Part shown: positions 6,485 through 30,042 of the stretch, piece by piece
Numbering within the stretch: the first letter of the stretch is position 1
Layout: each line of letters opens with the position of its first letter
Translations under genes and position numbers: made by a program
Origin: a virus
Virus record (IMG/VR): IMGVR_UViG_3300036774_000078
Coordinates: 1 to 30,042 of that record
DNA length: 30,042 nucleotides
Strand: one strand, 5' to 3'
The notes under the pieces: model-generated
The model's input: the letters and a program-made list of their open reading frames with translations, nothing else
Told to the model about the DNA's origin: nothing
The model's database searches: none

Positions 6485-6505
6485 GCTCTGGTTCTCCTTC
6501 GTGGT

Positions 6506-6916: not shown

Positions 6917-7137
6917 TACACGTTCCCCTTTTTGCTTTCGGCACGCGCGGCTTCCCACTTCGCAAGCTGCGCGCTGACGACGCGAAGCACCGGCGCCAGG
7001 CCCGTCACCGTCTCCTGTTGCTGGCGCAGGCGCTCCGAGAGGATGTCGAGACGAGTTTCGTTCGCGCGCTGCCAGAGGATGAGGCACACCGTGTTGCAAA
7101 GCGTGCCGAGCAGAATAACGAGTTGCCAGCCGTTCAT
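6916..7137 (-). CDS. Small membrane protein with coiled coil
   Basis: 73 residues. An N-terminal hydrophobic segment (residues 5-22, LVILLGTLCNTVCLILW) is followed by a charged, heptad-like region (ETRLDILSERLRQQQETV...), so it is probably a single-pass membrane protein with a cytoplasmic or periplasmic coiled coil. A strong GAGGAGG lies 5 nt before ATG 7137, inside the 10-nt gap after the exonuclease stop. No family is recognised. It resembles small i-spanin-like or membrane-anchoring proteins only in layout; its position among recombination genes argues against lysis. Confidence 0.7.
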   Translation of the reverse strand: MNGWQLVILLGTLCNTVCLILWQRANETRLDILSERLRQQQETVTGLAPVLRVVSAQLAKWEAARAESKKGNV

Positions 7138-7147
7138 GGTGACCTCC

Positions 7148-8116
7148 TCAGACGTCGGGGCGAATCGAGAACTTCAACTGACGTGACGGAGCCACCGAGT
7201 GCGCCTTCACGTCGTAGCCCTTCTTCGTCTCGAACTTGTAGAGGCCCTTCCCCTCCGGGAGAAGGCCGCGCGTCGCGGTTCCGAGCATCGACGCGATCTG
7301 GTTCTTGCACATCTTCTCCTCTTCCTCGGACTTCTTGCGCTGCTCCGTCGCGAGCACGAGCCGGTCGTGCCACACAAGCACTTCCTTCGGCAACGTGATG
7401 ACGCGCCCGTCCTCGCGCATCTTCTTCAGCGTCGCGATCGTCGACTCGCTCGCGTCGAGTGGAGGTGGCGTGCCGTCCTGCACCATCTGCCAGAACTTCT
7501 TCGTCCTCGCGACGAGCGTCTTCAGGAAGGCTTCGTTCCTCACGACGTGCGTGAAGATGAACTTCTGTCCGCCGATCAGACAGGCGATGCTCGCGTAGAG
7601 GCGCCCCGTCACGAAGAGCTGCTGCTGCACTTGGATCTGGTAGTAGAGCGGCGCTTCCTCGGACCAGTCCTCCGCGAACCGCTCGCCCGTGGTCTTGCAT
7701 TCGAGTAGGCCCGCGGTCGCCAACCTGGGATTCTGCTGCTCGTAGTCCGGCGTCGCGAGGAGCCAGGGACATGCACGCGACCGGAGCAGGTGCGCGCCGA
7801 GCGGGTGCTTCCAGACTTCGCGTCCGGTCTCCTCGGCGAACGTCTCGCCAACGATGTGCTCCAGCTTCCGGCCCCACGCCATGCGCTCGTTGTCGGGCTG
7901 CCCTTCGATCTCGCCACGCTTCCTCTGGTAGAGGGAGAACGGGCTCTCCCATGGGTTCACACCGAAGATGATCGCGGCTTCGCTCGCGCCGATGCCGGAG
8001 TCACGGGCCTTCAGCCAGCCCGCGCGATCCTTCTCCGAGTCCGCGAGCGTGACGAACGGCCTGGGCGCACTGCGTCCGTTCTTGCTCGCTCTTCGTCGGT
8101 GCGCTATTCCTGCCAC
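7148..8116 (-). CDS. YqaJ-family phage exonuclease (lambda Exo-like)
   Basis: Alkaline-exonuclease-type enzyme that resects double-strand ends for RecT. In the 322-residue version, GIGASEAAIIFG (41-52), WGRKLEHI (81-88), ATPD (121-124), LLECKT (137-142) and YYQIQVQQQLF (158-168) are the YqaJ motifs, with D124, E139 and K141 as the likely PD-(D/E)XK metal-binding residues. Residues 210-322 form a helical, Lys-rich tail. I choose GTG at 8116 because a strong AAGGAGG (8125-8131) lies 8 nt upstream; the GTG at 8143 has only the GC-rich inverted repeat before it. It is the first gene of the minus-strand operon. Confidence 0.92.
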   Translation of the reverse strand: MAGIAHRRRASKNGRSAPRPFVTLADSEKDRAGWLKARDSGIGASEAAIIFGVNPWESPFSLYQRKRGEIEGQPDNERMAWGRKLEHIVGETFAEETGREVWKHPLGAHLLRSRACPWLLATPDYEQQNPRLATAGLLECKTTGERFAEDWSEEAPLYYQIQVQQQLFVTGRLYASIACLIGGQKFIFTHVVRNEAFLKTLVARTKKFWQMVQDGTPPPLDASESTIATLKKMREDGRVITLPKEVLVWHDRLVLATEQRKKSEEEEKMCKNQIASMLGTATRGLLPEGKGLYKFETKKGYDVKAHSVAPSRQLKFSIRPDV

Positions 8117-8124
8117 GTCTGCCT

Positions 8125-8131
8125 CCTCCTT
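8125..8131 (-). promoter_or_regulatory. Ribosome binding site deciding the YqaJ start
   Basis: AAGGAGG on the minus strand, 8 nt before GTG 8116. It selects this start over the in-frame GTG at 8143. Confidence 0.7.
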
Positions 8132-8143
8132 CGGTGTAGACAC

Positions 8144-11270: not shown

Positions 11271-11536
11271 CCGACGAGCAGACGGAAGCCGACGCGGAGC
11301 TGCTGGGGCTGTGCGATGCGTTGCTGGCCGACATGAAGAGGCTGCGGGAGGTGTACGCCGCGACGGCGAAGATCGTGGCGGCGGCAGTTGCGTTCAACGC
11401 TCACTTCATGCACGTCTCCACCGGAGCGGCCGGCACGACCAAACGACGAGACTGGGAGCGAGAGTGCGAGCGGCTTGGCGAGCGACTGAATGATGCCATC
11501 GCCGCCTGCCGCGCCGTCACGGAGCCGAAGTTGTGA
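11267..11536 (+). CDS. Unknown protein, paralogous family member C
   Basis: 89 residues. Starts MTDEQTEADAELLGLCDALL, the same N-terminal module as members A and B, but lacks the RGVTLL-RAARESV block and runs into a different helical C-terminus ending CRAVTEPKL. It looks like a composite: N-terminus of the A/B type joined to an end like that of the genes stopping at 9834 and 10259. ATGA overlap with the previous gene, GTGA with the next. Confidence 0.65.
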   Translation: MTDEQTEADAELLGLCDALLADMKRLREVYAATAKIVAAAVAFNAHFMHVSTGAAGTTKRRDWERECERLGERLNDAIAACRAVTEPKL

Positions 11537-12498
11537 CCGGCTCTCTCCACAAGGTTTCCCCGCTCCGCGTCTCGGTGCGCCCGGACTTTGACGCGCTCGA
11601 CTTCGGCACGCCGGTCGATGCTCCGGCACGTACGGATGACGGCCGTCCGTGGGTGCGCTGGGCGAAGTACGGCGCGTTCTCGGGCTGGCACGCCGTCGGC
11701 GCGCGGAAACCGCGGCTCGTGGGTAAGCCGACGTTCTGGGAGGCCGTCTACTCGGTCGCGTGTGCATGTGCCGGCGGGAACGTCGACCAGACTCACTGTT
11801 GCGGCCGCGGAGTGCTCGCGCTTGGTGGCCTCGGAGTCACGATGCGCTCGGGCTACGCGCAGTTACTCCTTCACTCGTGCCTCCTGTCGAACCCGGCGCG
11901 CTACGTCGAGATCATGGCGCCGGTGATCCGCGAAACGGGGGCCTACACGAAGAAGACGGGCAAGAGCCCGAGCGGCGTCGCGCTCGGCGTGCTCGGGCGG
12001 TACGCGATGGCCGAGGATCAGATGCGCGCTCTCGTGATGATGGGCTCCGACGGGATCGTCTGGACGAACGCGCAGAAGAAGCGGGCGAAGCTCTGGGTCT
12101 CGTGCTGCTCGGAGCTTCTGCGCGACGACTCGATGGACAGAGCGCAGCATGCGTTCGCCGAGGAGGTCATGCCGGCGCTCCTGACCGTCACGACGAAGGA
12201 GATGATCTCCTGGCCGCCGAACGGGCTCGCTGGTCTGCTCGGCGTCGGGCAGTACACGCACGAGCAGCAGATGCTCTGGGCGCTATCCTTGGTCATGGCG
12301 CTGGAGGACGAGAACCAGACCGAGACGCTCGTGAGCGACGCGCGGACGGCGGCACGTGCCCAGGACGACTTCTCGGCGGAGGGCGTTCTCCGGCACATGC
12401 AGCGCGAGTCGACCGGTTCGCCGTACGAAGGAGTTTTCTGGGCACGGCTCACGGCGGCGACGAAGCTGCTCGGAGACATGATGGGAGTGACGCTGTGA
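11533..12498 (+). CDS. Unknown protein, 321 aa, possible peptidoglycan-related enzyme
   Basis: The largest gene of the small-gene run (GTG start in a GTGA overlap). Residues 10-60 (SVRPDFDALDFG, DGRPWVRWAKYGAFSGWHAV) look like a short beta domain. From residue 70 it is helical, beginning TFWEAVYSVACACAGGN, then VLALGGLGVTMRSGYAQLLL. A Glu in a buried helix followed by a Gly-rich segment resembles lysozyme-fold proteins, but the similarity is weak. Cys residues at about 76-90 (ACACAGG, HCCGRG) are unusual. I would call it hypothetical. Confidence 0.65.
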   Translation: MTGSLHKVSPLRVSVRPDFDALDFGTPVDAPARTDDGRPWVRWAKYGAFSGWHAVGARKPRLVGKPTFWEAVYSVACACAGGNVDQTHCCGRGVLALGGLGVTMRSGYAQLLLHSCLLSNPARYVEIMAPVIRETGAYTKKTGKSPSGVALGVLGRYAMAEDQMRALVMMGSDGIVWTNAQKKRAKLWVSCCSELLRDDSMDRAQHAFAEEVMPALLTVTTKEMISWPPNGLAGLLGVGQYTHEQQMLWALSLVMALEDENQTETLVSDARTAARAQDDFSAEGVLRHMQRESTGSPYEGVFWARLTAATKLLGDMMGVTL

Positions 12499-18429: not shown

Positions 18430-18458
18430 TTGACGAACGGATCTCACGTGACTACGGT
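18430..18458 (+). promoter_or_regulatory. Promoter candidate, leaderless type, start of the virion/lysis module
   Basis: TTGACG (18430-18435), a 17-bp spacer and TACGGT (18453-18458) precede ATG 18466 by 7 nt, so transcription would begin at or next to the A of ATG. No Shine-Dalgarno sequence lies before that ATG. -35 matches 5 of 6, -10 only 3 of 6. Confidence 0.45.
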
Positions 18459-18465
18459 CGGGACC

Positions 18466-18741
18466 ATGCCGAGCCTCAAGCATGCCGTGGCCCTGCTCGT
18501 TGTCGGATGCACCACAGGCCCGGTCGTTCCGACCGTGCAGACCGTGTGCGAGGACGCCGCGACGCAGAACGCTCCTGAGCTTGCGAAGCTCGCTGCCGGT
18601 CGCGGCGTCTCGGCTGCTGAGATGCAGCAGGAGTTCGTCACGGCGTGCGTGACGCGCCTCAACGCGGACCTTCAGGAGATCCCGGCGGATCTCGCAGCCA
18701 TCTCGACCGTGCCACCCTCAGACGCAGGAACAGACCAATGA
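18466..18741 (+). CDS. Putative small lipoprotein
   Basis: 91 residues from ATG 18466. MPSLKHAVALLVVGC is a short lipoprotein signal with a near-lipobox VVGC (C15), followed by TTGPVVPTVQTVC and a helical region LAKLAAGRGVSAAEMQQ, ending Pro/Ser/Asp-rich. A TTG at 18430 would add 12 residues, but those bases look like a promoter. It could be a spanin-like or exclusion lipoprotein. Overlaps the next gene by 4 nt. Confidence 0.6.
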   Translation: MPSLKHAVALLVVGCTTGPVVPTVQTVCEDAATQNAPELAKLAAGRGVSAAEMQQEFVTACVTRLNADLQEIPADLAAISTVPPSDAGTDQ

Positions 18742-19724
18742 AAGAAGTCTTCGCCCCCCATCTAGGTCGGAACGTCAAGTTCGGTCGCCGCGAGCGCGCA
18801 CCGGGCGGTTCTCGCGTCCACTTCTCGGACTTCGTGGCGCACGCGGCGATGCCGACGATCCCGACCGCCTGCGACTTCTCACCGAAGGCGGCATCGGTGC
18901 TCGCTGACATCTACAAGAACGATTCCCTCGGGGATTGCGTCATCGCGGGCGGCTACCACATCCTCGGCACCTGGACGGGCAACGCGACGGGTGTGCCGTT
19001 CCACGCGACGGGCGCGCAGATCCTGGCGGACTACCAGGCCATCGGCGGATACGTTCCGGGCGACCCGAGCACGGACAACGGCTGCCAGCTGCAGGACGCG
19101 ATCAAGTACTGGACGAAGAAGGGTTTCGCGAACGGAACGAAGCTCATCGGATCTACGTCGGTCAACGCGCGCAGCGTGAACGACGTGAAGGCCGTGTGCT
19201 TCTTGACGGAGACGCTGAAGTTCGGCGTCGGTCTGCCGGATGCGTGGGTGAACCCGTTCCCGGCGGGGAACGGCTTCGTGTGGGACGTGGCGGGACCGTC
19301 GAACCCGAACAACGGGCACGACTTCATCGCGTACGGCTTCAACGACAAGGGCGTGCTCATCGACTCGTGGGGCCTCAAGGGTCTCATCACCTGGCCGGCC
19401 GTCGCGGCCTACGCCGGGCCCTCCGCGAACGGGGAACTTTACGGGCTCTTCACGGAGGACATCCGGGCGAAGGGCCAGGCTGTCGCGCCGAACGGCGTGG
19501 CCTGGACCGATCTGGTGAAGGCTTTCGATGCGGAGGGCGGCAACGTCCCCGTGCCGGCACCTCCGCCTCCCGCGCCTCCGGCACCGACGCCGGGCGGCAT
19601 CGTGACGCTCGCGCAGGCGCAGGCGTGGGCCGTCTCGGGGCTGCAGGCCGGTCCGTGGCTGATCTCGAAGGACGCAGCCATGACGAAGGTGAAGCAGTCG
19701 CTTCAGGGGAACTGGCCGAAGTGA
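18738..19724 (+). CDS. Papain-fold (C39/C1-like) cysteine peptidase-like protein with Pro-rich linker
   Basis: 328 residues. DSLGDCVIAGGYHILGTWTG places a candidate nucleophile C67 at a helix start, NNGHDFIAYGFN gives H194 and LIDSWGLKG gives D209, the Cys-His-Asp order of papain-like enzymes. I have seen this arrangement (GDC-x-I-A... GHD/GHA ... W-G) in bacterial and phage proteins of unknown substrate. A Pro/Ala linker (271-286) leads to a 40-residue helical tail (LAQAQAWAVSGLQAGPWLIS). It may process virion proteins or act on the cell wall. There is no signal peptide. Confidence 0.7.
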   Translation: MKEVFAPHLGRNVKFGRRERAPGGSRVHFSDFVAHAAMPTIPTACDFSPKAASVLADIYKNDSLGDCVIAGGYHILGTWTGNATGVPFHATGAQILADYQAIGGYVPGDPSTDNGCQLQDAIKYWTKKGFANGTKLIGSTSVNARSVNDVKAVCFLTETLKFGVGLPDAWVNPFPAGNGFVWDVAGPSNPNNGHDFIAYGFNDKGVLIDSWGLKGLITWPAVAAYAGPSANGELYGLFTEDIRAKGQAVAPNGVAWTDLVKAFDAEGGNVPVPAPPPPAPPAPTPGGIVTLAQAQAWAVSGLQAGPWLISKDAAMTKVKQSLQGNWPK

Positions 19725-20248
19725 TTTCGATCCCCGAAGTTCTCACTGCGATGCTCTCGCTCATGCCGGGTCCGAGCCCGGCATGGAACGAGACGCAGGA
19801 GCAGTACCTCTCTCGCGCACAGGTCGTCGCCGAGTCCATCGTTGCCGCGTCGGACGGCAAGCGACAGCGCGCGATGGCGATCCTCGTCGTGTTCTGGGGA
19901 GAGAGTCGTTTCTCGCCCCTCATCCACGCGGGGCTCAAGCTCGGTGACGGCGGCAAGGCGATCTGCCTTGGGCAGCATCATCAGCTGACGCGCACGACGG
20001 AGGAATGGTCGAGCCTCGCCGGCACAGACCGGGCAGCGACCACGCGGTGCGCGCGGGCCACCGGCGACGCGCTCGTGCGCTCCTGGCACTACTGCCGCGC
20101 GCTCTCGGACAAGTTCGACTACCCGGAAGCGTTCGTGCTCTACGGCACGGGCGCGACGTGCCGCGCGAACGAGTCGAAGTGGAAGGGCATCTTCGTCGAC
20201 CGCGGCGAGAAGTGGCACGCACTCGTGGCGCACGGGAGGATCCTGTGA
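19721..20248 (+). CDS. Transglycosylase/lysozyme-like protein
   Basis: 175 residues from GTG 19721 (GTGA overlap). The region AMAILVVFWGESRFSPLIHAG resembles the ES-x-F/W catalytic stretch of soluble lytic transglycosylases, with E61 as the candidate acid. Later QHHQLT, CRATGDALVRSWHYCR and FVLYGTGATC fit a lysozyme-type helical fold with extra cysteines. Probably a peptidoglycan hydrolase for entry or lysis. No signal peptide or membrane segment. The overlap suggests coupled expression with the peptidase-like gene. Confidence 0.7.
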   Translation: MISIPEVLTAMLSLMPGPSPAWNETQEQYLSRAQVVAESIVAASDGKRQRAMAILVVFWGESRFSPLIHAGLKLGDGGKAICLGQHHQLTRTTEEWSSLAGTDRAATTRCARATGDALVRSWHYCRALSDKFDYPEAFVLYGTGATCRANESKWKGIFVDRGEKWHALVAHGRIL

Positions 20249-20439
20249 CCCCTGAGAAAGCAGCGAAGCGCCATCCGGTGTGTCCGGTCGAGGGGCACGG
20301 ACCGCTCTCGTACTTCGAGTCCGCTGACGCCTACGCCTGCATGCAGTGCGACGAGTGGCGCGAGGAGGAGTGCGGGGAACAGGTCTGCTCCTTCTGTCAG
20401 AAGCGCCCCGAGCACCCGTCAGAGCTTCGAGCCTCGTGA
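20245..20439 (+). CDS. Small zinc-ribbon-like protein, 64 aa
   Basis: GTG start with GGAGGA upstream (GTGA overlap). Cysteines in HPVCPVEGHG, YACMQCDEW, EECGEQVCSFCQK form at least two CxxC pairs, so one or two zinc sites. Short, soluble, Glu-rich. No family name can be given. Confidence 0.6.
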   Translation: MTPEKAAKRHPVCPVEGHGPLSYFESADAYACMQCDEWREEECGEQVCSFCQKRPEHPSELRAS

Positions 20440-20663
20440 CGCTGCTCACCGCGCACCTGACCTGCGCGGGCCTCACCTGGGTCGCGATCGTGACCGACGG
20501 CGTCACGACGCGACTCACACCGAGGAGCTTCCTTCGTGCGCTGCGTTACGACATCGTCACCTTCGGAGCTGGCCGGGTGGTCCTGTGGGCGCTGCTCTGC
20601 CTCACGATGTGGTGGACAGTCTGGTTCGCCTGGATGATGGACTGGCTGGAGTCGCGCAAGTAG
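20436..20663 (+). CDS. Small membrane protein
   Basis: 75 residues from GTG 20436. Residues 1-20 are moderately hydrophobic, and residues 43-70 (GRVVLWALLCLTMWWTVWFAWMMDW, shown in part) form a strong Trp-rich membrane helix. Positive charges (RSFLRALR) lie between. Could be a virion membrane protein or lysis accessory. Confidence 0.6.
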   Translation: MTLLTAHLTCAGLTWVAIVTDGVTTRLTPRSFLRALRYDIVTFGAGRVVLWALLCLTMWWTVWFAWMMDWLESRK

Positions 20664-20689
20664 ACTCCGGCATGTGCCGACGGTAGAGT
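20661..20689 (+). promoter_or_regulatory. Leaderless-type promoter candidate before 20696
   Basis: TAGACT (20661-20666), 17 nt, TAGAGT (20684-20689), then 6 nt to ATG 20696, with no Shine-Dalgarno sequence. The spacer contains the 12-bp motif CGGCATGTGCCG. GGCATGTGC-N4-GGTAGAGT is shared with the site before 21119. Confidence 0.5.
20668..20679 (+). repeat. 12-bp palindromic motif CGGCATGTGCCG, copy 4
   Basis: Exact copy lying between the -35 and -10 boxes of the promoter candidate for the gene at 20696, a position where a bound repressor or activator would control initiation. Confidence 0.55.
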
Positions 20690-20695
20690 CCGGGG

Positions 20696-21073
20696 ATGCT
20701 GGCCCACATCCGTGACGCGCTCGCTCAGGTCAACCCCGACTTCCCGTGGATCTGCCTGACCACCGTGATCTGGCTTGCGCAGTACCTCACGCGCCGCTTC
20801 GCGCCGAAGGTCTGGCTGGTGGCGTTCTCCTGGATGCCGACCGACCTGCCGGAGATGGCCAAGCGAATCGCGCAGGGGCTCCCGAGCGTGCTCGTCGGCG
20901 CCGCGATCCCGGCCATCGCCTCCGGCGGCGACACGAAGCAGGCGCTGCTCGGGGCGCTCTTCGGCGCGTTCGCGCCGCTGTGGCACCACATCCTGAAGGC
21001 AATGCCTGGCAGTTATCAGGGGGTTCTGACGCCCTCCGTCGCTCCGTCGCCCCCGGCTGATCCGCCCGCCTGA
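20696..21073 (+). CDS. Holin-like membrane protein
   Basis: 125 residues. Two hydrophobic segments (about 16-34, FPWICLTTVIWLAQYL, and 60-95, GLPSVLVGAAIPAIAS with LLGALFGAFAPLWH) separated by a charged/Trp loop, with a Pro-rich soluble tail. Layout and size fit a class II-like holin, but such small bitopic proteins may equally be virion membrane proteins. ATG 20696 has no ribosome site; a TAGAGT box ends 6 nt before it. Confidence 0.6.
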   Translation: MLAHIRDALAQVNPDFPWICLTTVIWLAQYLTRRFAPKVWLVAFSWMPTDLPEMAKRIAQGLPSVLVGAAIPAIASGGDTKQALLGALFGAFAPLWHHILKAMPGSYQGVLTPSVAPSPPADPPA

Positions 21074-21082
21074 CCGCCCTCC

Positions 21083-21111
21083 TTCCCATGGGCATGTGCT
21101 CGGGGTAGACT
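21083..21111 (+). promoter_or_regulatory. Leaderless-type promoter candidate before 21119
   Basis: TTCCCA (21083-21088), 17 nt, TAGACT (21106-21111), 7 nt to ATG 21119. GGCATGTGC (21091-21099) sits exactly 4 nt before GGTAGACT, as in the 20661-20689 site. No ribosome binding site is visible. Confidence 0.5.
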
Positions 21112-21118
21112 GGCGCGC

Positions 21119-21664
21119 ATGTTCGATAACGCCCCGAGCGTGTTCGAGAACGTGCCCGCAGGTCACAGACCCGACGTGGCGTCAACTGCGCCTCCGGTAC
21201 ACATGCCGATCGGCGCGAGCCCGGATGGACTCGGGGCTGGCCCGGACGGCATGGGCGCCTACGCCCAGCCCGTGCAGGCACATGCCGGGACCGGCGAGTA
21301 CTTCCAGCCGGCGGCCGGCATGGGCGGGTACGCTCGACCGTCGTTCGGTGGCATGAACGGCGAGATCGCGTTCCTGGAACCAGCCGACGCTTCTCCGGCT
21401 GCTGCGCTGCAGTCGGCGGGCATCACGGCGCTCGTCGCCGCGGTGGCCTTCGGCGCCGGCCTCGCGCTCGGCGGTCCGTGGGGCAGCGTCTCGGGGATCA
21501 TGTTCTCCGGGTCGGCGTTCAACGTGTACCGCGCTCAGAAGTGGTGGGGCAGCCCGAACCCGAGCGAGAAGCACGAGGCCGTCGTGAGCGCGATGTTCGC
21601 AGCGATCGGGATCGCGGCTGGCGGGTACACGGCCTACCAGGCGTACCAGGCGTCGCGGCGTTAA
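21119..21664 (+). CDS. Membrane protein with Gly/Ala-rich helices, probable virion membrane protein
   Basis: 181 residues. Residues 1-85 are Pro/Gly/Met-rich and look disordered (VHMPIGASPDGLGAGPDGMG). Two membrane helices follow: about 95-120 (AALQSAGITALVAAVAFGAG) and 155-178 (AVVSAMFAAIGIAAGGYTAY), both with small-residue packing patterns. Between them lies VYRAQKWWGSPNPSEKHE. It precedes the candidate major structural gene, so an abundant internal-membrane or membrane-insertion role is possible. Function not established. Confidence 0.65.
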   Translation: MFDNAPSVFENVPAGHRPDVASTAPPVHMPIGASPDGLGAGPDGMGAYAQPVQAHAGTGEYFQPAAGMGGYARPSFGGMNGEIAFLEPADASPAAALQSAGITALVAAVAFGAGLALGGPWGSVSGIMFSGSAFNVYRAQKWWGSPNPSEKHEAVVSAMFAAIGIAAGGYTAYQAYQASRR

Positions 21665-21700
21665 CGGCCCCGCGCTGACTTTCAAGAGGAAGTATCACAC

Positions 21701-22564
21701 ATGGCAGGCGATTCGGCCCCGTCCGGGGCAACGATGGTCGACGCGCAGCTCACGAACGTCCGTGTGCTGAAGCCAGCCCCGAACTTCGAGCGCAACTACC
21801 AGGGGAAGCCGGCGAACACGCCGATCGCCTTCCCAGGCGTACGGGACACGCGAGCGGAAGAGGGCGCTCCGGGCTTCTCCCCGGATCTGATGAAGGGCAT
21901 CGCGGTGCCGCAAGGCTCGCGGGTGCTCCTCAACTTCCCGATCTGCGTGAACCCCGTACCGCCGGGCAACGCGCTGTTCCCGTTCCAGTTCTACAGCTAC
22001 CGGCTGATCTGGCGCTTTCAGGGGCTCGGTAGCTTCCGGAACCCAGGCACGAAGCAGCGGAGGGCGCCGTACCACTTTCCGAGGCAGAGCCCCGGAGCGC
22101 CGGCCACCATCCTGGGCATCCCGGTGCCCAGAGTGACGATCGCGGCCTCGTGGCACGTCGTGGCGTACCAGCAGACCGAGCCGGCGACGGGCGCCGGCAA
22201 TCTCGTGGTGCGGCAGGAGGTGATCACCCCGCGGTTCGACTCACTCAACGAGTTCGTTCCCCCGCTCCTGCCAGACGGCACTCCCGCCGTGATCCAGCAA
22301 GGGGTGCTCGATCCAGGGCTCGTCGGTGGCGTCGCAAACGAACCGATCTTCGCTCCGTTCTGGACCGACGCCGAGGGCGACGAGCTGATCATCCTCGCGA
22401 ACCGCGTCGACTGGCAGGACAACGCGGCCCCAGCGTGGGACTTCACGGATCCGGCGAAAGACCTGGCGTTCTCGAACATCTACGGCACGGGCACGTGGGC
22501 CGGCGGTGGGCACCAGTCGTTCCGCGACGTCGGCATCTACATGCAGACCGGCACGACGCCGTGA
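21701..22564 (+). CDS. Candidate major structural protein (beta-rich, 287 aa)
   Basis: Strong AAGAGGAAG lies about 9 nt before ATG 21701. The protein is Pro/Gly/aromatic-rich with many strands (VLLNFPICVNPV, LFPFQFYSYRLIWRFQG, RVTIAASWHVVAYQQTE, NLVVRQEVITPRF, DELIILANRVDWQDN), few helices, and no signal peptide or coiled coil. Length and composition would suit a jelly-roll capsid protein of a tailless phage, or a head decoration/fibre protein of a tailed one. No HK97-fold features are seen. It lacks enzyme motifs. The call as capsid protein is inference. Confidence 0.5.
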   Translation: MAGDSAPSGATMVDAQLTNVRVLKPAPNFERNYQGKPANTPIAFPGVRDTRAEEGAPGFSPDLMKGIAVPQGSRVLLNFPICVNPVPPGNALFPFQFYSYRLIWRFQGLGSFRNPGTKQRRAPYHFPRQSPGAPATILGIPVPRVTIAASWHVVAYQQTEPATGAGNLVVRQEVITPRFDSLNEFVPPLLPDGTPAVIQQGVLDPGLVGGVANEPIFAPFWTDAEGDELIILANRVDWQDNAAPAWDFTDPAKDLAFSNIYGTGTWAGGGHQSFRDVGIYMQTGTTP

Positions 22565-22625
22565 TCGCGCGCCGGCATCAAGACTTCCACATGTCCGACA
22601 ACTGAGAGAGAAGGAGAAGAAGCGC

Positions 22626-23081
22626 ATGCACAAGGGAGCAAGAGTCGACGGCGGAGACTACTTCGACGACATCGCGAACCGCGAGGACGCGGGCGTGTTC
22701 GGCGGCCTCGGTGTCGAGGACTACGAGGGGATCAAGGAGTCGATCGACGCCGATGGCCTCGTGATCCGCATGAACTGCCGTCGATGCAACAAGACGCACG
22801 ATGTGACGCTGGAGTGGAAGGAGCTGTTCATCGCCGGCAGCAACGGTCCGGGCCTGACTCCGGTGATGCCGCCCGGCTGGACCTACAGCGAGAACAACCA
22901 GAAGCTCTACCCGATCAACATCCCGTGCTCGAAGTGCCGGGAGCTTCTCTGCCCCCAGATCACGCCGGACGAGGCGCGTCAGCGCGTGAACGACGCGGTC
23001 GCCCGCGGCATGATCCCGATGCAGGCCCTCGCGGGCTGGAAGCATCAGATCGACATGTACAGGGGCCAGAACGGCGGCTGA
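22626..23081 (+). CDS. Unknown protein with zinc ribbon (two CxxC pairs)
   Basis: 151 residues, with GAGAAGGAG well placed before ATG 22626. Residues 49-55 (NCRRCNK) and about 99-110 (PCSKCRELLC) make a split zinc ribbon enclosing the segment with PGLTPVMPPGWTYSENNQ. The C-terminus is helical (ITPDEARQRVNDAVARGM). The acidic N-terminus is rich in Asp/Gly. I recall similar small zinc-binding proteins next to capsid genes, but no function is known to me. Confidence 0.65.
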   Translation: MHKGARVDGGDYFDDIANREDAGVFGGLGVEDYEGIKESIDADGLVIRMNCRRCNKTHDVTLEWKELFIAGSNGPGLTPVMPPGWTYSENNQKLYPINIPCSKCRELLCPQITPDEARQRVNDAVARGMIPMQALAGWKHQIDMYRGQNGG

Positions 23082-23094
23082 GAGTCGCCCTCAC

Positions 23095-23646
23095 ATGAGC
23101 GCCTGTCCCGAGATCCGCTCGCCGCTCACCGTCGAGGAAGCGGAGGCCGTCATCGAGCCTTACTTCCTCGCGGTGCGCGATGTGTTCGTCGGAAACGGAG
23201 CGAGCAAGTGCAAGCGCGTGACACTGGAGATCGCTCCATGGATCCACGACAGCCCGAGGCACTTCGCGGCGACCGAGGAGAGCGGCAAGCACATGGTCGT
23301 GTCGCCGGAGTTCGCAGAGCTTCCCGAGGACACGGTCATCGCGATCCTGAGCCACGAGTTCGGGCACGCCGTCGACTTCCTGTACCCCGGCGAGTACCTG
23401 CTCGTGGACGATGGCGAGCTGGTGAGGATGCCGCGCGTGCCGCTCGGCAAGCTCATCGACAAGAAGGCTGAGCAGGCGCACATCGCCAGGGCACGTGCCT
23501 GGGAGAAGCGCGGCAAGGACACGATCGAGCGCACGGCGGACTCCATCGCCGAGCTGTTCACGGGACACCTTATCGGCTACTGCGGCCCCTGCGAGCTGCA
23601 GTGCTTCGATCGCGGACACAGACCGCGTAGACCGGGGCTCCGATGA
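23095..23646 (+). CDS. Zinc metallopeptidase-like protein (HExxH)
   Basis: 183 residues. VIAILSHEFGHAVDFLYPGE carries HEFGH (H87, E88, H91) in a helix, and ERTADSIAELFTG downstream (E145, D149) could supply the third ligand, as in gluzincins. The tail has CGPCELQC (163-170). The family contains phage and bacterial proteins that cleave peptides or host surface proteins. There is no signal peptide, so it acts inside the cell, in the virion, or after lysis. It overlaps the next gene by 4 nt. Confidence 0.75.
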   Translation: MSACPEIRSPLTVEEAEAVIEPYFLAVRDVFVGNGASKCKRVTLEIAPWIHDSPRHFAATEESGKHMVVSPEFAELPEDTVIAILSHEFGHAVDFLYPGEYLLVDDGELVRMPRVPLGKLIDKKAEQAHIARARAWEKRGKDTIERTADSIAELFTGHLIGYCGPCELQCFDRGHRPRRPGLR

Positions 23647-24134
23647 ACCTGGATCGCGAAGCGAAGATCGGGATCGCTCTCGTCGTGACGGGCGCGGCCG
23701 CGCTCCTGCTCTGGCCGCGGAAGTCCGTTCGGGAGCACATCGTGGAGATCGCGAAGGGTGAGCTGGGTCAGCAGGATCCGCAGAAGTACTGGGAGGACGT
23801 CATCCCCGGCGCCGAGGGGACGATCTTCCACGGCGACTGGTGCGGCGGCTTCTCGCTCTGGGTGCTGCACCAGGCCGGCATCGGGCGCGACGTGAACTGG
23901 CAGATCGGCAAGGGCTACCTGTTCAATCTGTCCACGACGAGTGACCCGCAGCCGGGTGACATCGCGTACATGAACCTGCCGTACCAGCATCACGCCGTCG
24001 TGGTCGAATCGGACGGCTCGAACATCACGACGGTGGACGGGAACCAGCCGGGAAGCATGGTGAAGCTGCGAACGCGGCCCGTGTCGGCGTGGACCGCGTT
24101 CTACTCCGTGCAGCCGTGGATCGACGCGGCGTGA
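23643..24134 (+). CDS. Membrane-anchored CHAP/NlpC-P60-like peptidoglycan hydrolase
   Basis: 163 residues. Residues 8-24 (KIGIALVVTGAAALLLW) form an N-terminal membrane anchor followed by PRKSVRE. The catalytic domain has GDWCGGFSLWVLHQAG (C67), PGDIAYMNLPYQHHAVVVES (H116 or H117) and VDGNQ (N134), the CHAP/NlpC-P60 order of Cys, His and polar residue. It probably cuts cell-wall peptides. A membrane-tethered hydrolase without a cleavable signal suits a virion or inner-membrane lytic enzyme. Confidence 0.72.
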   Translation: MNLDREAKIGIALVVTGAAALLLWPRKSVREHIVEIAKGELGQQDPQKYWEDVIPGAEGTIFHGDWCGGFSLWVLHQAGIGRDVNWQIGKGYLFNLSTTSDPQPGDIAYMNLPYQHHAVVVESDGSNITTVDGNQPGSMVKLRTRPVSAWTAFYSVQPWIDAA

Positions 24135-24496
24135 TGTACGGCGCATCGACGAACTACCAGCCGACGTGGACGAGCACGCTACCGCTGAACGGCTACGGCG
24201 GCCAGGGTTACGACATGTTCGGGACGGCGCACGTCGTCGTCATCCGGAACATGCGGTCGGACTACACGTACGGCAACGAGCCGCTCGACGTCACGCTCAG
24301 GAGGGATCTCGATCGGTTCTCGCGTCTCGCAGAGACGCTCCTGGAGCGGAAGCGACGGATCTCGCGCGAGCAGAAGAGGCTCGCGACCGCGAGACTGCGG
24401 CGCTTCGGGCTCCCCGCGCTCCCCGAGGCGATGTTCCACAAGCCGACGTTCGTGCGTCGCGCGTGCGGCAGTCGCTGGCGCGTGATGACGCCCTAG
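24134..24496 (+). CDS. Unknown basic protein, 120 aa
   Basis: Starts at ATG 24134 in a TGATG overlap (a GTG just before is in frame too). The N-terminus is Gly/Tyr/Thr-rich (MYGASTNYQPTWTSTLPLNG, GYGGQGYDMFGTAHVVV). Residues 55-100 are very basic and helical (RRDLDRFSRLAETLLERKRR). It could bind nucleic acid or a membrane surface in the virion. Its TAG interlocks with the TAG of the convergent gene at 24493 in CTAG. Confidence 0.6.
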   Translation: MYGASTNYQPTWTSTLPLNGYGGQGYDMFGTAHVVVIRNMRSDYTYGNEPLDVTLRRDLDRFSRLAETLLERKRRISREQKRLATARLRRFGLPALPEAMFHKPTFVRRACGSRWRVMTP

Positions 24497-24741
24497 TACC
24501 TTCCGGTAGGCAGCGGCGCGCGACCAGGACGAGGTTGTTCGTCGAGCGCCTCGATGACGGCGACGCGCGTGGACAGATCCCCGACGTCCTTCTTGATGCC
24601 GTCGATGCCGTGGCGGAGACGCTCCTCGGAAGCGAGGATCTCCTTCCGCATCACCATCTCGCTCTTGAAGTAGAAGACGACCATCGAGACGATCATCGCG
24701 AGGATCGTCAAGGACATCTGCAGCCAGGCTTCTGGGGCCAT
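24493..24741 (-). CDS. Small membrane protein with coiled coil
   Basis: 82 residues on the minus strand. A membrane helix at about 8-25 (QMSLTILAMIVSMVVFYF) is followed by a charged, heptad-like region (MRKEILASEERLRHGIDGIK, VGDLSTRVAVIEALDE) and a Pro/Arg tail. ATG 24741 overlaps the stop of the upstream minus gene (TGATG). Similar layout to the small membrane protein at 6916. It might be a spanin-like or lysis-regulation protein. No sequence family is recognised. Confidence 0.6.
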   Translation of the reverse strand: MAPEAWLQMSLTILAMIVSMVVFYFKSEMVMRKEILASEERLRHGIDGIKKDVGDLSTRVAVIEALDEQPRPGRAPLPTGRY

Positions 24742-25031
24742 CACCAGAATCTCCGGACGCTGTTGAGCGCCCGTCTCCGGGCCTCGCAGGGCGAGCAGTT
24801 CGGGTCCATGCCGACCGCTCGGGCGACCGGCTTCGCTACGGCAGCGAAGGCGTCGCCGAGGCGCATGGAACCTCGTGGGGCCTGGTGGACGCGGTGGGCC
24901 TGGGCGAAAGACGCGGCGTCTGGTCCGGTTCGGTGAAGGCCGCCGGCTCCGCAGACCTCGCAATACAGGTCGATCCCGTCCGTGCGGCGTTCGACCAAAA
25001 CCCACGGGATCTCCTGAGAGAACCTCTGCAT
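24741..25031 (-). CDS. Unknown minus-strand protein with two CxxC pairs
   Basis: 96 residues from ATG 25031; the frame remains open to GTG 25091, so a longer form is possible, but that would cover the promoter of the divergent gene. LYCEVCGAGG and PNCSPCEARRRALN give two CxxC pairs, a likely zinc ribbon split by a helical linker. With the downstream membrane protein it forms a two-gene island running against all surrounding genes. Function unknown. Confidence 0.5.
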   Translation of the reverse strand: MQRFSQEIPWVLVERRTDGIDLYCEVCGAGGLHRTGPDAASFAQAHRVHQAPRGSMRLGDAFAAVAKPVARAVGMDPNCSPCEARRRALNSVRRFW

Positions 25032-25054
25032 CCTGAGGCATATGTTGCCGCAGC

Positions 25055-25083
25055 TTCCTCCGGGCCACAAGCCCTGGTACTCT
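25055..25083 (+). promoter_or_regulatory. Weak leaderless-type promoter candidate before 25092
   Basis: GGTACTCT ends 8 nt before ATG 25092, with TACTCT (25078-25083) as -10 and only a poor -35 (TTCCTC, 25055-25060) at 17 nt. It resembles GGTAGAGTCCGG before 20696. There is no ribosome site. Confidence 0.3.
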
Positions 25084-25091
25084 CCGGGCAC

Positions 25092-25670
25092 ATGTCAACC
25101 GCCCCCTACGTCCTGGGAGGAATCGCAGGCTTGGCGCTGGTGAAAGCGCTGTTCCGGCCGCACCGGGCGGTCGTCAGGGAGGGCGGCGTGGCGGCATGTC
25201 CCGGTCCGAACAGGTACCGGGTCTGTGACCCGAGCCTGGCCATCGACGCGGCGTCGGGCACTCCCGTGTTCTCGACCGCCGAGGGCCGAGTCGCCGTCGT
25301 CGGAGATCGGTTCTTGCAGATCGCCGCGCACGACGAGCCGGTGGTGCTCATGTACGACGGCGTCGTCCCGTCGGTACAGGAGGGGCAGTACGTCGGGCGA
25401 GGTCAGCAGATTGGGCAGTCGATGGGGCGCGTGTTCTTCAGCGTCACGCAGTTCATGCCCGGCAACAAGCTCGTCAAGGTGGACCCGTCCTCGTGGCTCG
25501 CGTCGCGCGGGCAGCAGATCGCCGCGAAGTACACGGGTTCTCGCAACGAGTGGTGCGAGCAGGGCAGGAACATCGACGTGCCCGCGAGCGCCGGTGGGCC
25601 GTGCAACCTGTACGAGCCGGAGCGTGGAGGATTCGCTCTCCTGCCCGTGACCGTCAGCGTGGAGCGGTAG
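25092..25670 (+). CDS. Membrane-anchored, degenerate M23 (LytM)-like protein
   Basis: 192 residues. Residues 5-22 (PYVLGGIAGLALVKALF) are an N-terminal membrane anchor. Residues 55-118 follow the M23 beta pattern (GTPVFSTAEGRVAVVGDRFL, then EGQYVGRGQQIGQ), but the usual H-x-H near the end reads GRVFFSV and the expected YAH reads MYDG, so the zinc site seems lost. A non-catalytic peptidoglycan-binding or structural role is more likely than cleavage. Four Cys (36, 45 and two near 155-170) could form disulfides outside the cytoplasm. Confidence 0.55.
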   Translation: MSTAPYVLGGIAGLALVKALFRPHRAVVREGGVAACPGPNRYRVCDPSLAIDAASGTPVFSTAEGRVAVVGDRFLQIAAHDEPVVLMYDGVVPSVQEGQYVGRGQQIGQSMGRVFFSVTQFMPGNKLVKVDPSSWLASRGQQIAAKYTGSRNEWCEQGRNIDVPASAGGPCNLYEPERGGFALLPVTVSVER

Positions 25671-25673
25671 CAC

Positions 25674-26816
25674 ATGTCGAGATACGGCACGATCCTCGGG
25701 GGCTCCGCCAATGCGGTGTCCTTCATCGTTGAGGGAGCGACGCCAGAGGCTCTGCTCGCCGCTTCTGAAGCGGCCGGTCTCGCGACGTTCGGCCCGCTGC
25801 AGGATCCGGTCATCACGTCGGTCACGCTCACCGGCGCGGGCGACGGCCACATGTTCTTCCTGGAGGTACAGGGGACTGCAGGCGTCAACGCAGATGGCGG
25901 CCTCGATGCGACCACGCTCAGTGCCAAGGGGTTCCTTGGAGCGGAATCCGAGGTACTGACGAAGGCGCTTCAGGCCGTGCAGAGCGCGTCACCTGTCGTG
26001 GACGTGCAGATCGCGGGGGCCGCCAAGGGACAGAGGGTTCTCGGGATCGTGATCTTCGGGACGCTCCTCGGCGGCGGAGGCGCGTTCGAGATGTTCTCGC
26101 GCGTCGACTGCTCGGTGAATGCGGCGTACGTCGAGTCCCCGTACAGCCGAACGCCGGTGCTGCACACGAGGTCGAGCGGCCAGGTCGCGGGCGGATACAA
26201 CGGCGGCGGGACCGGCAACAAGACGATCCTTGGGTTCCGGGTCGGCAATGGGCTCCCGCTCGGGCAGCTGCAGAGCATCGAATACACGTGGCTGGATCTG
26301 AATCCGGCGATGAGCGGCTTCGCGACGTACGCGAACCTGATCATCGACGTGTACGGAAACGGCACAGCCTACAAGATCGCCGTCATCGATCCCGCGACGC
26401 CGCCTGGCCTGAACAACGGCACGACGGTCTCGAACCCGGACGGGTCGCACACGACCACGTGGCTCGGAGCGTCGAACAACGTGTTGATCGTGAACGGCCT
26501 GCACGTGACCGAGTTCCCGCCGCCTGCTCCGCCGCCGCCTGCTCCATCGCCGCCGTACGTGCCCCCCACGGCGGGTCCGGGCCTGCCGCCGAACTTCAAC
26601 TTCCCTGGGGGCTGGCCAGGGGAGAGCTACAGCATCCCTGCGATCCTCGCGGCGTTCCCCAACGCGAAGCTCGCTGAAGCGTCGAGCGGCGACGGCGGTC
26701 TGCCGCGGTCGCCAAACACGACGCCTGCGTTCTTGCTCGCCACCGGCGACAGCAACAATCAGGTCATCCGTGCCTTCCTCCTCTCGAACGTGAAGTTCAA
26801 CGGAGTAGTCGTATGA
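25674..26816 (+). CDS. Probable virion appendage/structural protein
   Basis: 380 residues with GGAGCGG before ATG 25674. The N-terminal 250 residues are strand-rich with Gly/Ala/Ser/Thr loops (VITSVTLTGAGDGHMFFLEV, IDVYGNGTAYKIAVIDP). A Pro hinge at about 280-305 (PPPAPPPPAPSPPYVPP) precedes a C-terminal domain ending NVKFNGVVV. The composition fits a phage surface or fibre protein. It overlaps the short gene at 26813 by 4 nt. No enzyme motif or signal peptide is seen. Confidence 0.55.
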   Translation: MSRYGTILGGSANAVSFIVEGATPEALLAASEAAGLATFGPLQDPVITSVTLTGAGDGHMFFLEVQGTAGVNADGGLDATTLSAKGFLGAESEVLTKALQAVQSASPVVDVQIAGAAKGQRVLGIVIFGTLLGGGGAFEMFSRVDCSVNAAYVESPYSRTPVLHTRSSGQVAGGYNGGGTGNKTILGFRVGNGLPLGQLQSIEYTWLDLNPAMSGFATYANLIIDVYGNGTAYKIAVIDPATPPGLNNGTTVSNPDGSHTTTWLGASNNVLIVNGLHVTEFPPPAPPPPAPSPPYVPPTAGPGLPPNFNFPGGWPGESYSIPAILAAFPNAKLAEASSGDGGLPRSPNTTPAFLLATGDSNNQVIRAFLLSNVKFNGVVV

Positions 26817-26995
26817 GCTACACGCCCGTCATCAACGAGCCACTCGACAGCACGACGCCGTTTCCGACGATGGGGACGACGGCGCAGCGCCCAGTCGCGC
26901 CGGCCGTCACGCAGGAGTACTTCGACACGACGCTCGACGAGCCGATCTGGTGGAATGGCGGAAACTGGGTCAACGCTGCTGGCGTGACGGTGTAG
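26813..26995 (+). CDS. Short phage structural peptide (YFDTTL-PIWWNG family)
   Basis: 60 residues. YFDTTLDEPIWWNGGNWVNA near the end is a motif I know from many phage fibre or tail-associated proteins, where it often forms the last part of a longer protein. Here it is a separate gene of which the first 30 residues are Pro/Thr-rich (TTPFPTMGTTAQRPVAP). It lies 3 nt before the first spike gene. Confidence 0.65.
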   Translation: MSYTPVINEPLDSTTPFPTMGTTAQRPVAPAVTQEYFDTTLDEPIWWNGGNWVNAAGVTV

Positions 26996-26998
26996 CTC

Positions 26999-27054
26999 GT
27001 GACCGTTCGCGACAAGACAGGAACGTCGGGCCGCGGGACGCCGCGCGTGCCGCC
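26999..27054 (+). repeat. Shared 5' segment of spike genes, copy 1
   Basis: 56 bp from the GTG start, identical to 28792-28847 except for two synonymous changes (Gly GGG/GGA and Thr ACG/ACT). Selection on the encoded anchor peptide is therefore likely. Confidence 0.8.
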
Positions 27055-28414
27055 AGCAACGTCGGCAACAGGCGATCACAAGGTCGCGGTCACCGGCGCG
27101 GATCCGACGCCGGACTACCTGGCGGCGAAGCTCACTGGTGACGCGAACATCACGCTCACGGTGATCCCTGGCGAGCAGCTGAAGATCGGCGTAACCGGCA
27201 CGTTTCCCGGCAAGTACCCGGTGCCGGACAACGTCTTCGCGATCAACGACGATCTCGACCCGACGAAGTTCCTGAACGTCCAGCTTGCGGGACAGGCCAC
27301 CGGTACCACGCAGACGATCGTCACCACTGCGACCGTGTCGCGACCATTCCGGTTGCCGGACATCTCCGGCACTGCCGTCGTCAGCGAGGACGTCACCGGC
27401 TTCACGTACATCGGCGGGCAGAAGACTCAGGACAACGGGTCCAACGCTCGCGTCCAGCTGCAAAGCAACATCGCGAACGGGTCGCAGTACCGGTCGAGCC
27501 AGTACGGAGCAAACGTAGGCGTCCCTGGCATCAGCACGTTCAAGAGCCGCGGGGCGTCTTTCCCGACGCTCGCCGCTTGCTTGCCTGGCGACGTCATCTT
27601 CCGTGCGACGGCCGCGTCCGTCACACAAACGGGAACGATTCCTCTCGGCGGTATGATCTCGATCCAGATTCCGACGGACTTTCCGCAGACCGGACAGTCG
27701 TGGAACGCGACCGAGTTCGAGATTCAGCTGGTCCCGTACACCTCTGCGACGAATGGACGCAGGGTCTCGTTCAAGGTCACCGCGGGAGGTGAAGCGCAGA
27801 CTCTTGCAGGTATCCGTGTCGGCGGCCCACTCGTTGTGAGTCTGGGTCCGAACCCGCCAGGGCAACTGAACAAGGGCGCGCTCATCAGTTCCGGCAACGG
27901 CGATCCGAACGGCTCCGTCACGGGCTCGGTCAGCGACCTCTGGTGCCGACTCGACGGCGGCCCCGGAACGACGCTCTACACGAAGGAAGCTGGCGCGGCG
28001 ACGAACACGGGATGGTCACCCATCACGCTCCCGAGCTATTTCAACCAGCTAGCCGCGAGCACGGTGCTGCCGTTCGGCGCTCCGGTGGTGCTCCACTCTC
28101 TGATTCTCACGCCGCGCGCTAACCACTTCTTCCTGATCAACTACACGGTCACAGCGTTCAATCAGATCGTGGCGTTTGGAACAGCAACCGCGACGTTCGA
28201 GCTATGGATCGATGGAGTGATGGTGAGCCAAGCGAACGAGTCGATCACCAACAACGTCGAGTACGGGTCGACGGGGATCACGTTCCGCACAGGCCCTCTC
28301 ACGGCCGCTCCGCACACCATCGAGATCCGAGGCTCGTCGAACGACGTGACGGGCATGGTAAGCGTGCCCATTCCCGGAAACTCAAATCTGCTAGTTCAAG
28401 AGGTCGCCGCGTAA
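26999..28414 (+). CDS. Spike/fibre protein with shared N-terminal anchor
   Basis: 471 residues from GTG 26999. The first 19 residues ([18 protein letters not shown] after the start) are identical to those of the collagen-like protein at 28792. Residues 25-60 ([18 protein letters not shown], then [19 protein letters not shown]) match a strand motif (DTTPGYL-x-x-KL) seen in phage appendages. The remainder is beta-rich, ending in a domain with [20 protein letters not shown] that resembles trimeric receptor-binding heads. Proposed role: host recognition. No enzymatic motif. Confidence 0.65.
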
Positions 28415-28439
28415 AGCCAAGCGCAAAGGAAAGAAGAAG

Positions 28440-28784
28440 ATGTCGTCCAAAGCCACGAACATGACCCCGACGCAGCAGCTGCCGAACGCGGCTGCCACTG
28501 TCTACACGGTTCCTGCCAACACGGTCGGCGTGATCCGCCACATTCACGTGCAGAACCCGTCGGCACTGCCGGTGACATTCACCATGTCGCTCGGGCTCGA
28601 CGCGGCCGGCAAGCGGATCTACGACGCCTACTCGATCCCGGCGGCAGCGGCGGGGCAGCCCGCGAGCGTGCTCGACGTCTTCTGCTACTACGTGCTCCCG
28701 GCAGCGACGGCGGTGCAGGCGTTCGCCGGAACCGCGGCGACGCTCACCTTCACCATGGACGGCCAGGAACTGACGGCCGGGTAA
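28440..28784 (+). CDS. Small beta-sandwich phage structural protein
   Basis: 114 residues with AAAGGAAAG before ATG 28440. [40 protein letters not shown] and [15 protein letters not shown] follow a pattern common in small phage virion proteins located beside fibre genes. All-beta, no signal, no enzyme motif. It may cap or decorate the spikes on either side. Confidence 0.6.
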
Positions 28785-28791
28785 CGGTCGC

Positions 28792-28847
28792 GTGACCGTT
28801 CGCGACAAGACAGGAACGTCGGGCCGCGGAACTCCGCGCGTGCCGCC
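28792..28847 (+). repeat. Shared 5' segment of spike genes, copy 2
   Basis: Second copy of the anchor-coding segment; similarity ends where the G-x-y rod begins. Confidence 0.8.
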
Positions 28848-29940
28848 GAACACGGGAGGCGGACCTCCCGGACCTCCGGGCCCTCCTGGCCCGCAGGGAG
28901 GCGGTGGTCCGCCTGGACCTCCTGGTGCTGACGGCACAGACGGTGAGGACGGCTTTCCGGGTCCGCCGGGTCCGCCCGGACCGCCAGGCGCGCAGGGATT
29001 TTCCGGTCCGGCAGGGCCTCCCGGCATGGACGGCGAGGACGGCCAGGACGGCGAGGATGGTCCACCCGGACCACCAGGACCGCAGGGCGCCGCTGGCGCG
29101 CAAGGCTTTCTGGGCCCGGCAGGGCCTCCCGGCATGGACGGCGAGGACGGCCAGGACGGCGAGGATGGTCCACCCGGACCACCAGGACCGCAGGGCGCCG
29201 CTGGCGCTGACGGCGCACCGGGCTTGCCCGGCCCTTCCGGCATGGACGGGCTCGACGGCGAGGACGGCTTTCCTGGTCCGCCCGGCGCCGCGGGTATGCC
29301 AGGCGCCGCGGGCGCGGCTGGCTCTCCCGGCATGGACGGGCTCGACGGCGAGGATGGGTTCGATGGCGCTCCGGGTGCCCCCGGCGTGCCTGGCCCACCC
29401 GGCCTGCAGGGACCGATCGGCGCTGACGGGCTCGACGGCGATCCAGGAGAGGAAGGTTTCCCCGGAGCGCCGGGCCTGCCCGGCGCCACAGGCGCCGCTG
29501 GTCCGCAGGGCATGCCTGGCTTCGACGGCGATCAGGGCGACGAGGGGTTCCCTGGTCCGCCAGGACCGATCGGTGCCACGGGCACCGCTGGCTCGCAGGG
29601 CATGCCTGGCTTCGACGGCGATCAGGGCGACGAGGGGTTCCCTGGTCCGCCAGGACCGATCGGCGCATCGATCCCGCTCGTGCAGATCGAAGTGGACTTC
29701 GGCACCACTCCGGTAGTCGATGCGCAGTTCACGATCACCGAGCCGCTTTCGACCACGACCTCGAAGATCATCGCCTCGCTGAGTGGCAAGACGGCGACAG
29801 GCAGAACGCCGGGCGACGCTCAGTGGGACGCCATCCAGTTCGCTGCTGATCCCGGCAACGGTTCATTCATCCTCTACGCGGTCTGCTCGACCGGCAGCGT
29901 CGTCGGCAAGCGCGTCGTCAACTACACCGTAGGTCCCTGA
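28792..29940 (+). CDS. Collagen-like spike/fibre protein
   Basis: 382 residues from GTG 28792. Residues 2-19 repeat the anchor of the 26999 protein. Residues about 23-290 are G-x-y collagen repeats ([25 protein letters not shown]), giving a trimeric rod. Residues 293-382 form a C-terminal domain ([39 protein letters not shown]) that I recognise from collagen-type phage fibres and which probably nucleates or caps the trimer. In PRD1 the spike P5 also has a collagen-like part. DNA of the rod has long internal repeats. Confidence 0.85.
29008..29207 (+). repeat. Exact 92-bp direct repeat in collagen-like rod
   Basis: 29008-29099 and 29116-29207 are identical, offset 108 bp (36 codons), so rod length could change by recombination without loss of frame. 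Confidence 0.8.
29504..29663 (+). repeat. Exact 70-bp direct repeat in collagen-like rod
   Basis: 29504-29573 and 29594-29663 are identical, offset 90 bp (30 codons), a second in-frame repeat near the end of the rod. Confidence 0.8.
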
Positions 29941-29952
29941 AAGAAGCACACC

Positions 29953-30042
29953 ATGGCAGCCATCGACTCTGGTGCAAGTACACCGAACAAGGCGAACGTC
30001 AACACGAACTTCCAGCTGGAAGTGCACACGCCGACGACGCAG
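29953..30042 (+). CDS. Start of another gene, probable structural protein, cut by window edge
   Basis: ATG 29953 opens a frame to the right edge encoding 30 residues (MAAIDSGASTPNKANVNTNF, then QLEVHTPTTQ), preceded by AAAGAAG. The start, with Ser/Thr/Asn-rich sequence and QLEVHTPTT, resembles N-termini of phage capsid or fibre proteins. Too short to assign further. Confidence 0.6.
   Translation, partial: MAAIDSGASTPNKANVNTNFQLEVHTPTTQ

Follow-up and report, generated by a model that had tools for sequence, protein, structure and literature searches.

A lineage of large viral genomes with a membrane-rich gene module and a probably tailless, membrane-containing virion

The DNA analyzed here (hereafter, the window) was the entire 30,042-base virus record IMGVR_UViG_3300036774_000078 of IMG/VR, designated G000. 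It carried a minus-strand block of DnaB, DnaC-like, RecT and RecE genes (725-8143), followed by small genes on the plus strand and then by a late block at 18430-29940. An earlier note on this DNA had presumed the late block to be the virion module of a tailless, membrane-containing phage. The late block contained the following features.

18738-19724, plus strand: protein possibly related to the wall or to entry (phrog_19005, E 8e-19; 34% to the 'cysteine protease' of the myovirus ctsHD2)
19721-20248, plus strand: putative wall-active protein, found in most relatives (no curated Pfam/NCBIfam match)
20436-20663, plus strand: small protein with two membrane segments predicted from hydropathy
20696-21073, plus strand: small protein of borderline hydrophobicity (best 15-mer 1.83)
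21119-21664, plus strand: Gly-rich protein with two predicted membrane segments, immediately before the 21701 gene, in relatives also
21701-22564, plus strand: conserved orphan, the capsid candidate of the earlier note, probable minor virion or vertex protein (16/20 related records)
22626-23081, plus strand: core protein, function not assigned (conserved in 9/9 genomes)
23095-23646, plus strand: core protein carrying HEFGH, a zinc-metallopeptidase motif (9/9 genomes)
23643-24134, plus strand: CHAP-domain wall hydrolase with a predicted N-terminal membrane anchor (Pfam CHAP, E 1.7e-7; segment 7-25)
25092-25670, plus strand: Peptidase_M23 wall hydrolase with a hydrophobic N-terminus (E 1.3e-6; 63-84% identity in relatives)
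25674-26816, plus strand: spike with an N-terminal adaptor domain, residues 1-129 (8-10 copies of the domain per genome in close relatives)
26999-28414, plus strand: spike with a shared 19-residue N-terminal peptide (sequence comparison)
28440-28784, plus strand: small protein between two spikes (no match)
28792-29940, plus strand: collagen-like spike that shares its 19-residue N-terminal peptide with 26999-28414 (PHROG match and sequence comparison)

The Pfam and PHROGs searches agreed with the earlier reading in that terminase, portal, HK97 capsid, tape-measure and baseplate families were all missing from the late genes, among which the only matches to head or tail families were collagen-like repeats. 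The two lytic-type proteins said to carry N-terminal anchors were the CHAP and Peptidase_M23 proteins, and both indeed had hydrophobic N-termini (best N-terminal 15-mer on the Kyte-Doolittle scale 2.55 and 2.08, respectively). As for the proposed small membrane proteins, two segments each were predicted for 20436-20663 and 21119-21664, but 20696-21073 was only borderline; the excess of membrane proteins in the window alone (6/19 late genes versus 3/35, P = 0.053) was only suggestive and weaker than had been stated. The further wall-active enzymes postulated at 18738-19724 and 19721-20248 matched no enzyme family, the former matching a PHROG of unknown function. The two spikes at 26999-28414 and 28792-29940, the latter collagen-like, started with identical 19 residues, and the same N-terminus was also detected in G001 and G002; the spikes were therefore regarded as exchangeable, as proposed earlier. 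The adaptor domain of approximately 129 residues in 25674-26816 was found at the head of 8-10 different proteins per genome (also seen in G002, G004, G006 and G007), several of them with collagen-like C-terminal parts. The late region of the window is the spike, wall-enzyme and minor-virion portion of the genome.

A search with the 21701-22564 protein detected relatives on contigs of 20-138 kb. The families of G004_167 and G004_168, two adjacent genes of the relative G004, brought 27 viral contigs with two contigs in metagenome bins, and five further contigs, respectively. The lineage comprised over 30 IMG/VR contigs, together with two from public genome bins; the latter were labelled Pseudomonadota and Planctomycetota, labels that may reflect misbinning and do not settle the host. 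The long relatives were 110-182 kb in length, and at least seven (G004, G006, G011, G014, G015, G021 and G002) were apparently closed circles. Terminal repeats of 123-127 bases were perfect in G004, G006, G014, G015 and G021 and nearly perfect in G011, while G002 overlapped itself by approximately 9.9 kb, leaving a net length of approximately 120.5 kb. We infer that these repeats and the self-overlap represent circular assemblies; a repeat of this length resembles an assembler word. The window, colinear with a portion of G001 (approximately 7.5-30 kb), had no end repeats that could be found and was therefore probably a fragment, about one quarter of a circular virus genome of probably 120-140 kb. 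The size of over 30 kb presumed earlier was thus far too low. As the block 167-168-169 was located on one of the contigs found with G004_168, of 298 kb (L197, or G027; 297,749 bp), the lineage may reach jumbo-phage size. No description of the lineage was found in a literature search that mostly did not reach subscription journals and preprints.

The test of TAILLESSNESS was whether any other part of the genome encodes a terminase, portal or tape measure, the observation that the earlier note had named as decisive against it. The idea withstood this test across a set of 20 long contigs of relatives, of which 7 were apparently closed circles. True matches were absent for Terminase_6N (PF03237) in six contigs, for the terminase profile phrog_2 in at least 20 long lineage contigs, and for Terminase_6C (PF17289) in 20 of 20 lineage members, although the last profile matched T4 and ctsHD2. 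Weak phrog_2 matches in G011 and G024 were rejected, as inspection of the sequences identified superfamily 2 (SF2) helicases. With the control tailed phages, phrog_2 detected T4 and JK004 but missed ctsHD2, and a single terminase profile was therefore insufficient; phrog_2 and Terminase_6C jointly detected 3/3 controls and no lineage member. The portal profile Phage_portal (PF04860), the single portal family applied besides the Pfam scan of G004, matched 0/18. Head, tail and packaging families were missing from the matches listed for that scan, which covered 144 proteins (25 of 31 families for the first half of G004, the remaining six all having E of at least 8.7e-6), and the scan of G021 provided weak negative evidence among the matches listed (25 of 65 families). 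With regard to tail tube, tape measure and baseplate, the Pfam and PHROG scans detected, at the level of sequence, no tail family besides the collagen-like repeats.

The alternative posed by the earlier note, a terminase or an FtsK/A32-type packaging ATPase, was examined in the relatives, and neither was found to be conserved. In the virus records, FtsK_SpoIIIE (PF01580) matched nothing but fragments of P-loops that scored under the cut-off; those in G006 and G019 were accordingly rejected as motors, the one in G006 being DnaB. HerA/DUF87 (PF01935) scored above the cut-off in G011 alone. The protein concerned, a HerA/DUF87-like ATPase of approximately 609 amino acids (G011:79396-81225), was present solely in this 182 kb genome and was not accepted as a feature of the lineage. 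When all proteins of at least 330 amino acids in the closed G002 were inspected, a packaging-compatible P-loop was found in DnaB only, and the recognizable P-loop ATPases of this genome were DnaB and the DnaC-like loader only.

Outside the window, the relatives shared a syntenic module of 27-35 kb (84.5-116 kb in G004, with matching stretches in G002, G006, G007 and G014). Membrane segments, predicted here from hydropathy alone, occurred in 51-60% of the module proteins versus 13-17% of the proteins encoded elsewhere in these genomes (P 8e-6 to 9e-9); the same method gave 8% for the head and tail genes of T4 and 54% for the virion genes of PRD1. The segments were mostly single and located 20 residues or less from the C-terminus, in about 20 such proteins. 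The wall enzymes of the lineage (CHAP, M23, lytic transglycosylase and SGNH hydrolase) were also membrane-anchored by prediction. The combination typical of membrane-containing phages, many membrane proteins together with membrane-bound wall enzymes, was thus present by prediction, with a presumed location in the virion.

The gene order 166-167-168-169 was kept in nine genomes, and the genes 145-161 adjoined 166-169 except in G011 and G015, where they were displaced and inverted. The protein G004_166 consisted of 28% Lys+Arg (42% in the first 450 residues), had two predicted membrane segments, and had a counterpart in 29/29 loci tested by iterated search, a count that composition bias may inflate. 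Adjoining this Arg/Lys-rich protein were three core orphan proteins, G004_167, G004_168 and G004_169 (267, 328 and 301 amino acids in G004). G004_167 showed 87-93% identity among close relatives, higher than most of its neighbors, and homologues were detected down to 36%. These features would fit a major virion protein. In several lineages, gene 167 was split at approximately one codon (RERVH/QPF) by group I introns (L060:7221-8034 in G006; L209 in G025; L208 in G027), identified by full-length matches to RF00028 that did not reach the gathering score (E 1e-4 to 0.06); the insert in G006 contained an open reading frame (ORF) resembling a LAGLIDADG endonuclease. The contig L068 carried the gene 167 start (MAKLTNVRERVHQPFRDTLIR) at two positions, 7068 and 8419, 1.35 kb apart, perhaps by duplication.

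The beta-rich capsid protein that had been suggested at 21701-22564 was not confirmed. The AlphaFold model (8 sequences) was poor, with a predicted local distance difference test (pLDDT) score of 44, and a Foldseek search with it returned noise only. This gene, although conserved, was not found in the most distant members, which makes others stronger candidates for the capsid; the product of 21701-22564 is unlikely to be the major capsid protein, whose gene more probably lies in the module beyond the window. The model of the G004_167 family (10 sequences) was also poor, with a pLDDT of 36. No convincing match to 167, 168, 169 or 21701-22564 was found in Pfam, PHROGs, NCBIfam or PDB, and the matches of candidate virion proteins in PDB profile searches were dismissed as chance. 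The 50,697 phage records searched, with 169 left out of that search, contained no match to 167, 168 or 21701-22564, and profile-profile comparison (167-168, 167-169, 168-169 and 168-21701) gave no relation. With regard to an HK97-fold capsid, the core proteins had no family or PDB match, and with regard to a double jelly-roll capsid there was no sequence match; the models were too poor to show either fold. At the sequence level, the virion and packaging genes of this 110-182 kb lineage are without detectable relatives.

A tailless virion with a lipid membrane is the best explanation for the lineage, and we consider it likely. The idea, argued from gene content, withstood the search for terminase, portal and tape measure and gained the membrane-rich module. 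Several points weigh on the other side. The lineage is known as sequence, with no isolate, particle image or proteome; no capsid fold was identified, as neither AlphaFold nor Foldseek yielded one; the packaging motor was not found, though double-stranded DNA viruses this large normally have one; the membrane segments of the module were called by hydropathy only; the module lies outside the window and its presence in this virus is deduced from relatives; and orphan head and tail proteins may evade profile searches.

The assembly and entry of such a virion can be proposed from the gene content and by analogy with PRD1 and PR772. The three core proteins G004_167, 168 and 169 would form a shell that encloses a membrane bearing the anchored proteins, and the Arg-rich protein, which has predicted membrane segments of its own, would condense the DNA onto this membrane. 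The spikes encoded in the window would attach through the common adaptor domain or the common N-terminal peptide and would be swapped among strains. After binding, the anchored CHAP, M23, lytic transglycosylase and SGNH hydrolase may breach the wall locally, with delivery of the DNA by the virion membrane as in PRD1. DNA loading without a recognizable terminase or FtsK/HerA motor might depend on an unrecognized motor, on a motor borrowed from the host, or on co-assembly with the condensed DNA.

The lineage could instead be a group of highly diverged tailed phages (Caudoviricetes) that evade the profiles, their membrane proteins serving lysis or host takeover. The collagen-like spikes indeed match 'tail fibre' PHROGs, the 844-residue coiled-coil core protein G004_147 can be imagined as a tape measure, tailed phages commonly carry DnaB and RecE/RecT genes of these kinds, and phrog_2 by itself missed a control tailed phage. 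This explanation is nevertheless unlikely, as the two terminase profiles that recovered every control gave no true match in 20 lineage members, G002 had no unexplained protein of at least 330 amino acids with a packaging-type P-loop, and the membrane fraction of 51-60% was unlike the T4 head and tail genes. Still less probable, to a degree that we regard as slight, is a non-viral origin, as a large extrachromosomal element, plasmid-like or other, that encodes surface proteins. The genomes are circular with no packaging genes recognized, and a tyrosine-recombinase-domain protein belongs to the core, but phage character is indicated by the wall hydrolases, by RecE/RecT and by collagen-like spikes whose ends can be swapped, the operon is conserved and structural-looking, and core protein 167 had no match among 72,556 plasmids.

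Within the preferred explanation of a tailless, membrane-containing virion, two affiliations were considered. Kinship with the realms of PRD1, PM2 and P23-77 (Varidnaviria/Singelaviria), with diverged jelly-roll capsids, an enlarged genome and a lost or diverged packaging ATPase, is possible though somewhat doubtful, a judgment that concerns kinship only and is no alternative to taillessness. The membrane-protein share equals that of PRD1, the membrane-anchored wall enzymes and collagen-like spikes are as in PRD1/PR772, and the adjacent core orphans of 250-330 amino acids are comparable in size to the paired capsid genes of P23-77-like phages; on the contrary, no profile or PDB match was obtained and an FtsK/A32-type ATPase was not conserved. 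It is suggested with equal reserve, as a tentative proposal, that the lineage stands outside all recognized realms, consisting of tailless membrane viruses of 110-300 kb with their own capsid proteins, DNA loading without a known packaging ATPase, and a membrane-anchored Arg/Lys-rich condenser.

Genomes are small, about 10-30 kb, in the tailless bacterial viruses known to contain a membrane. P23-77-like and SH1-like viruses, with single jelly-roll capsid pairs, and PM2 are tailless, have an internal membrane and adjacent capsid genes of similar size, and carry genomes of about 10-31 kb; they have a packaging ATPase, whereas none was found conserved in the lineage, and no sequence relation was detected. 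Large tailed phages (Caudoviricetes) are alike in genome size and in DnaB, RecE/RecT, ThyX, RuvC, GroES and collagen-like fibres, but terminase, portal, capsid and tail families were not detected in the lineage. The resemblance to PRD1 drawn in the earlier note held in function, and kinship was not supported, as a PRD1-type capsid, packaging ATPase and protein-primed polymerase were not found; for the last, no polymerase family was present among the G004 Pfam matches listed. Tectiviridae (PRD1, PR772) likewise lack a terminase and have many small membrane proteins, wall enzymes associated with the membrane and a spike that is partly collagen-like, but differ in their linear genome of approximately 15 kb versus circular genomes of 110-182 kb, in capsid proteins without detectable relation, and in replication, which is DnaB-based in the lineage. 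PR772 has a membrane-derived delivery tube, a collagen-like P5 stalk and a genome of about 15 kb (PMC6750898). PRD1 packaging is driven by the ATPase P9 (PMC6356626), and packaging ATPases of this type are common to most Varidnaviria (PMC8328091), whereas no such conserved ATPase was found in the lineage. FLiP (Finnlakeviridae), an icosahedral bacterial virus with an internal membrane (PMC7654751), differs in its circular single-stranded DNA genome and had no sequence relation to the lineage.

The remaining features assigned in the window were as follows.

725-2146, minus strand: DnaB-type replicative helicase (approximately 39% identity to phage DnaB; kept in relatives)
2146-3081, minus strand: DnaC/IstB-like helicase loader (adjoins DnaB in relatives too; its G004 homologue was covered by the family scans)
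5492-6484, minus strand: RecT-like single-strand annealing protein (phrog_148, E 2.7e-50)
7148-8143, minus strand: RecE/YqaJ-like exonuclease (phrog_434, E 2.3e-72)
11533-12498, plus strand: conserved protein, function not assigned (in 6/6 first-ring relatives; no PHROG)

A minus-strand ORF with a predicted membrane segment was located at 24493-24741 within the plus-strand late operon, with 80% identity in G001. Among the relatives, two glycosyltransferase-like proteins and a DnaJ-domain protein were core to 9/9 genomes, and a GroES-like gene was present in G004 (genes 32, 35, 178 and 38). The core protein G004_28 of the close relatives (L018:13588-17334; approximately 1250 amino acids) combined a tyrosine-recombinase domain with a large extension.

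The lineage is common in IMG/VR, yet the core proteins searched had no match in the phage records. If the explanation favored here is true, bacteria also have large tailless membrane viruses, with genomes roughly ten times those of the classic tailless phages and comparable in size to those of small nucleocytoplasmic viruses of eukaryotes, but without known capsid or packaging relatives. How DNA of such size is loaded without a recognizable packaging motor would then become a testable question, and the lineage would bear on the origin of large membrane-containing viruses.

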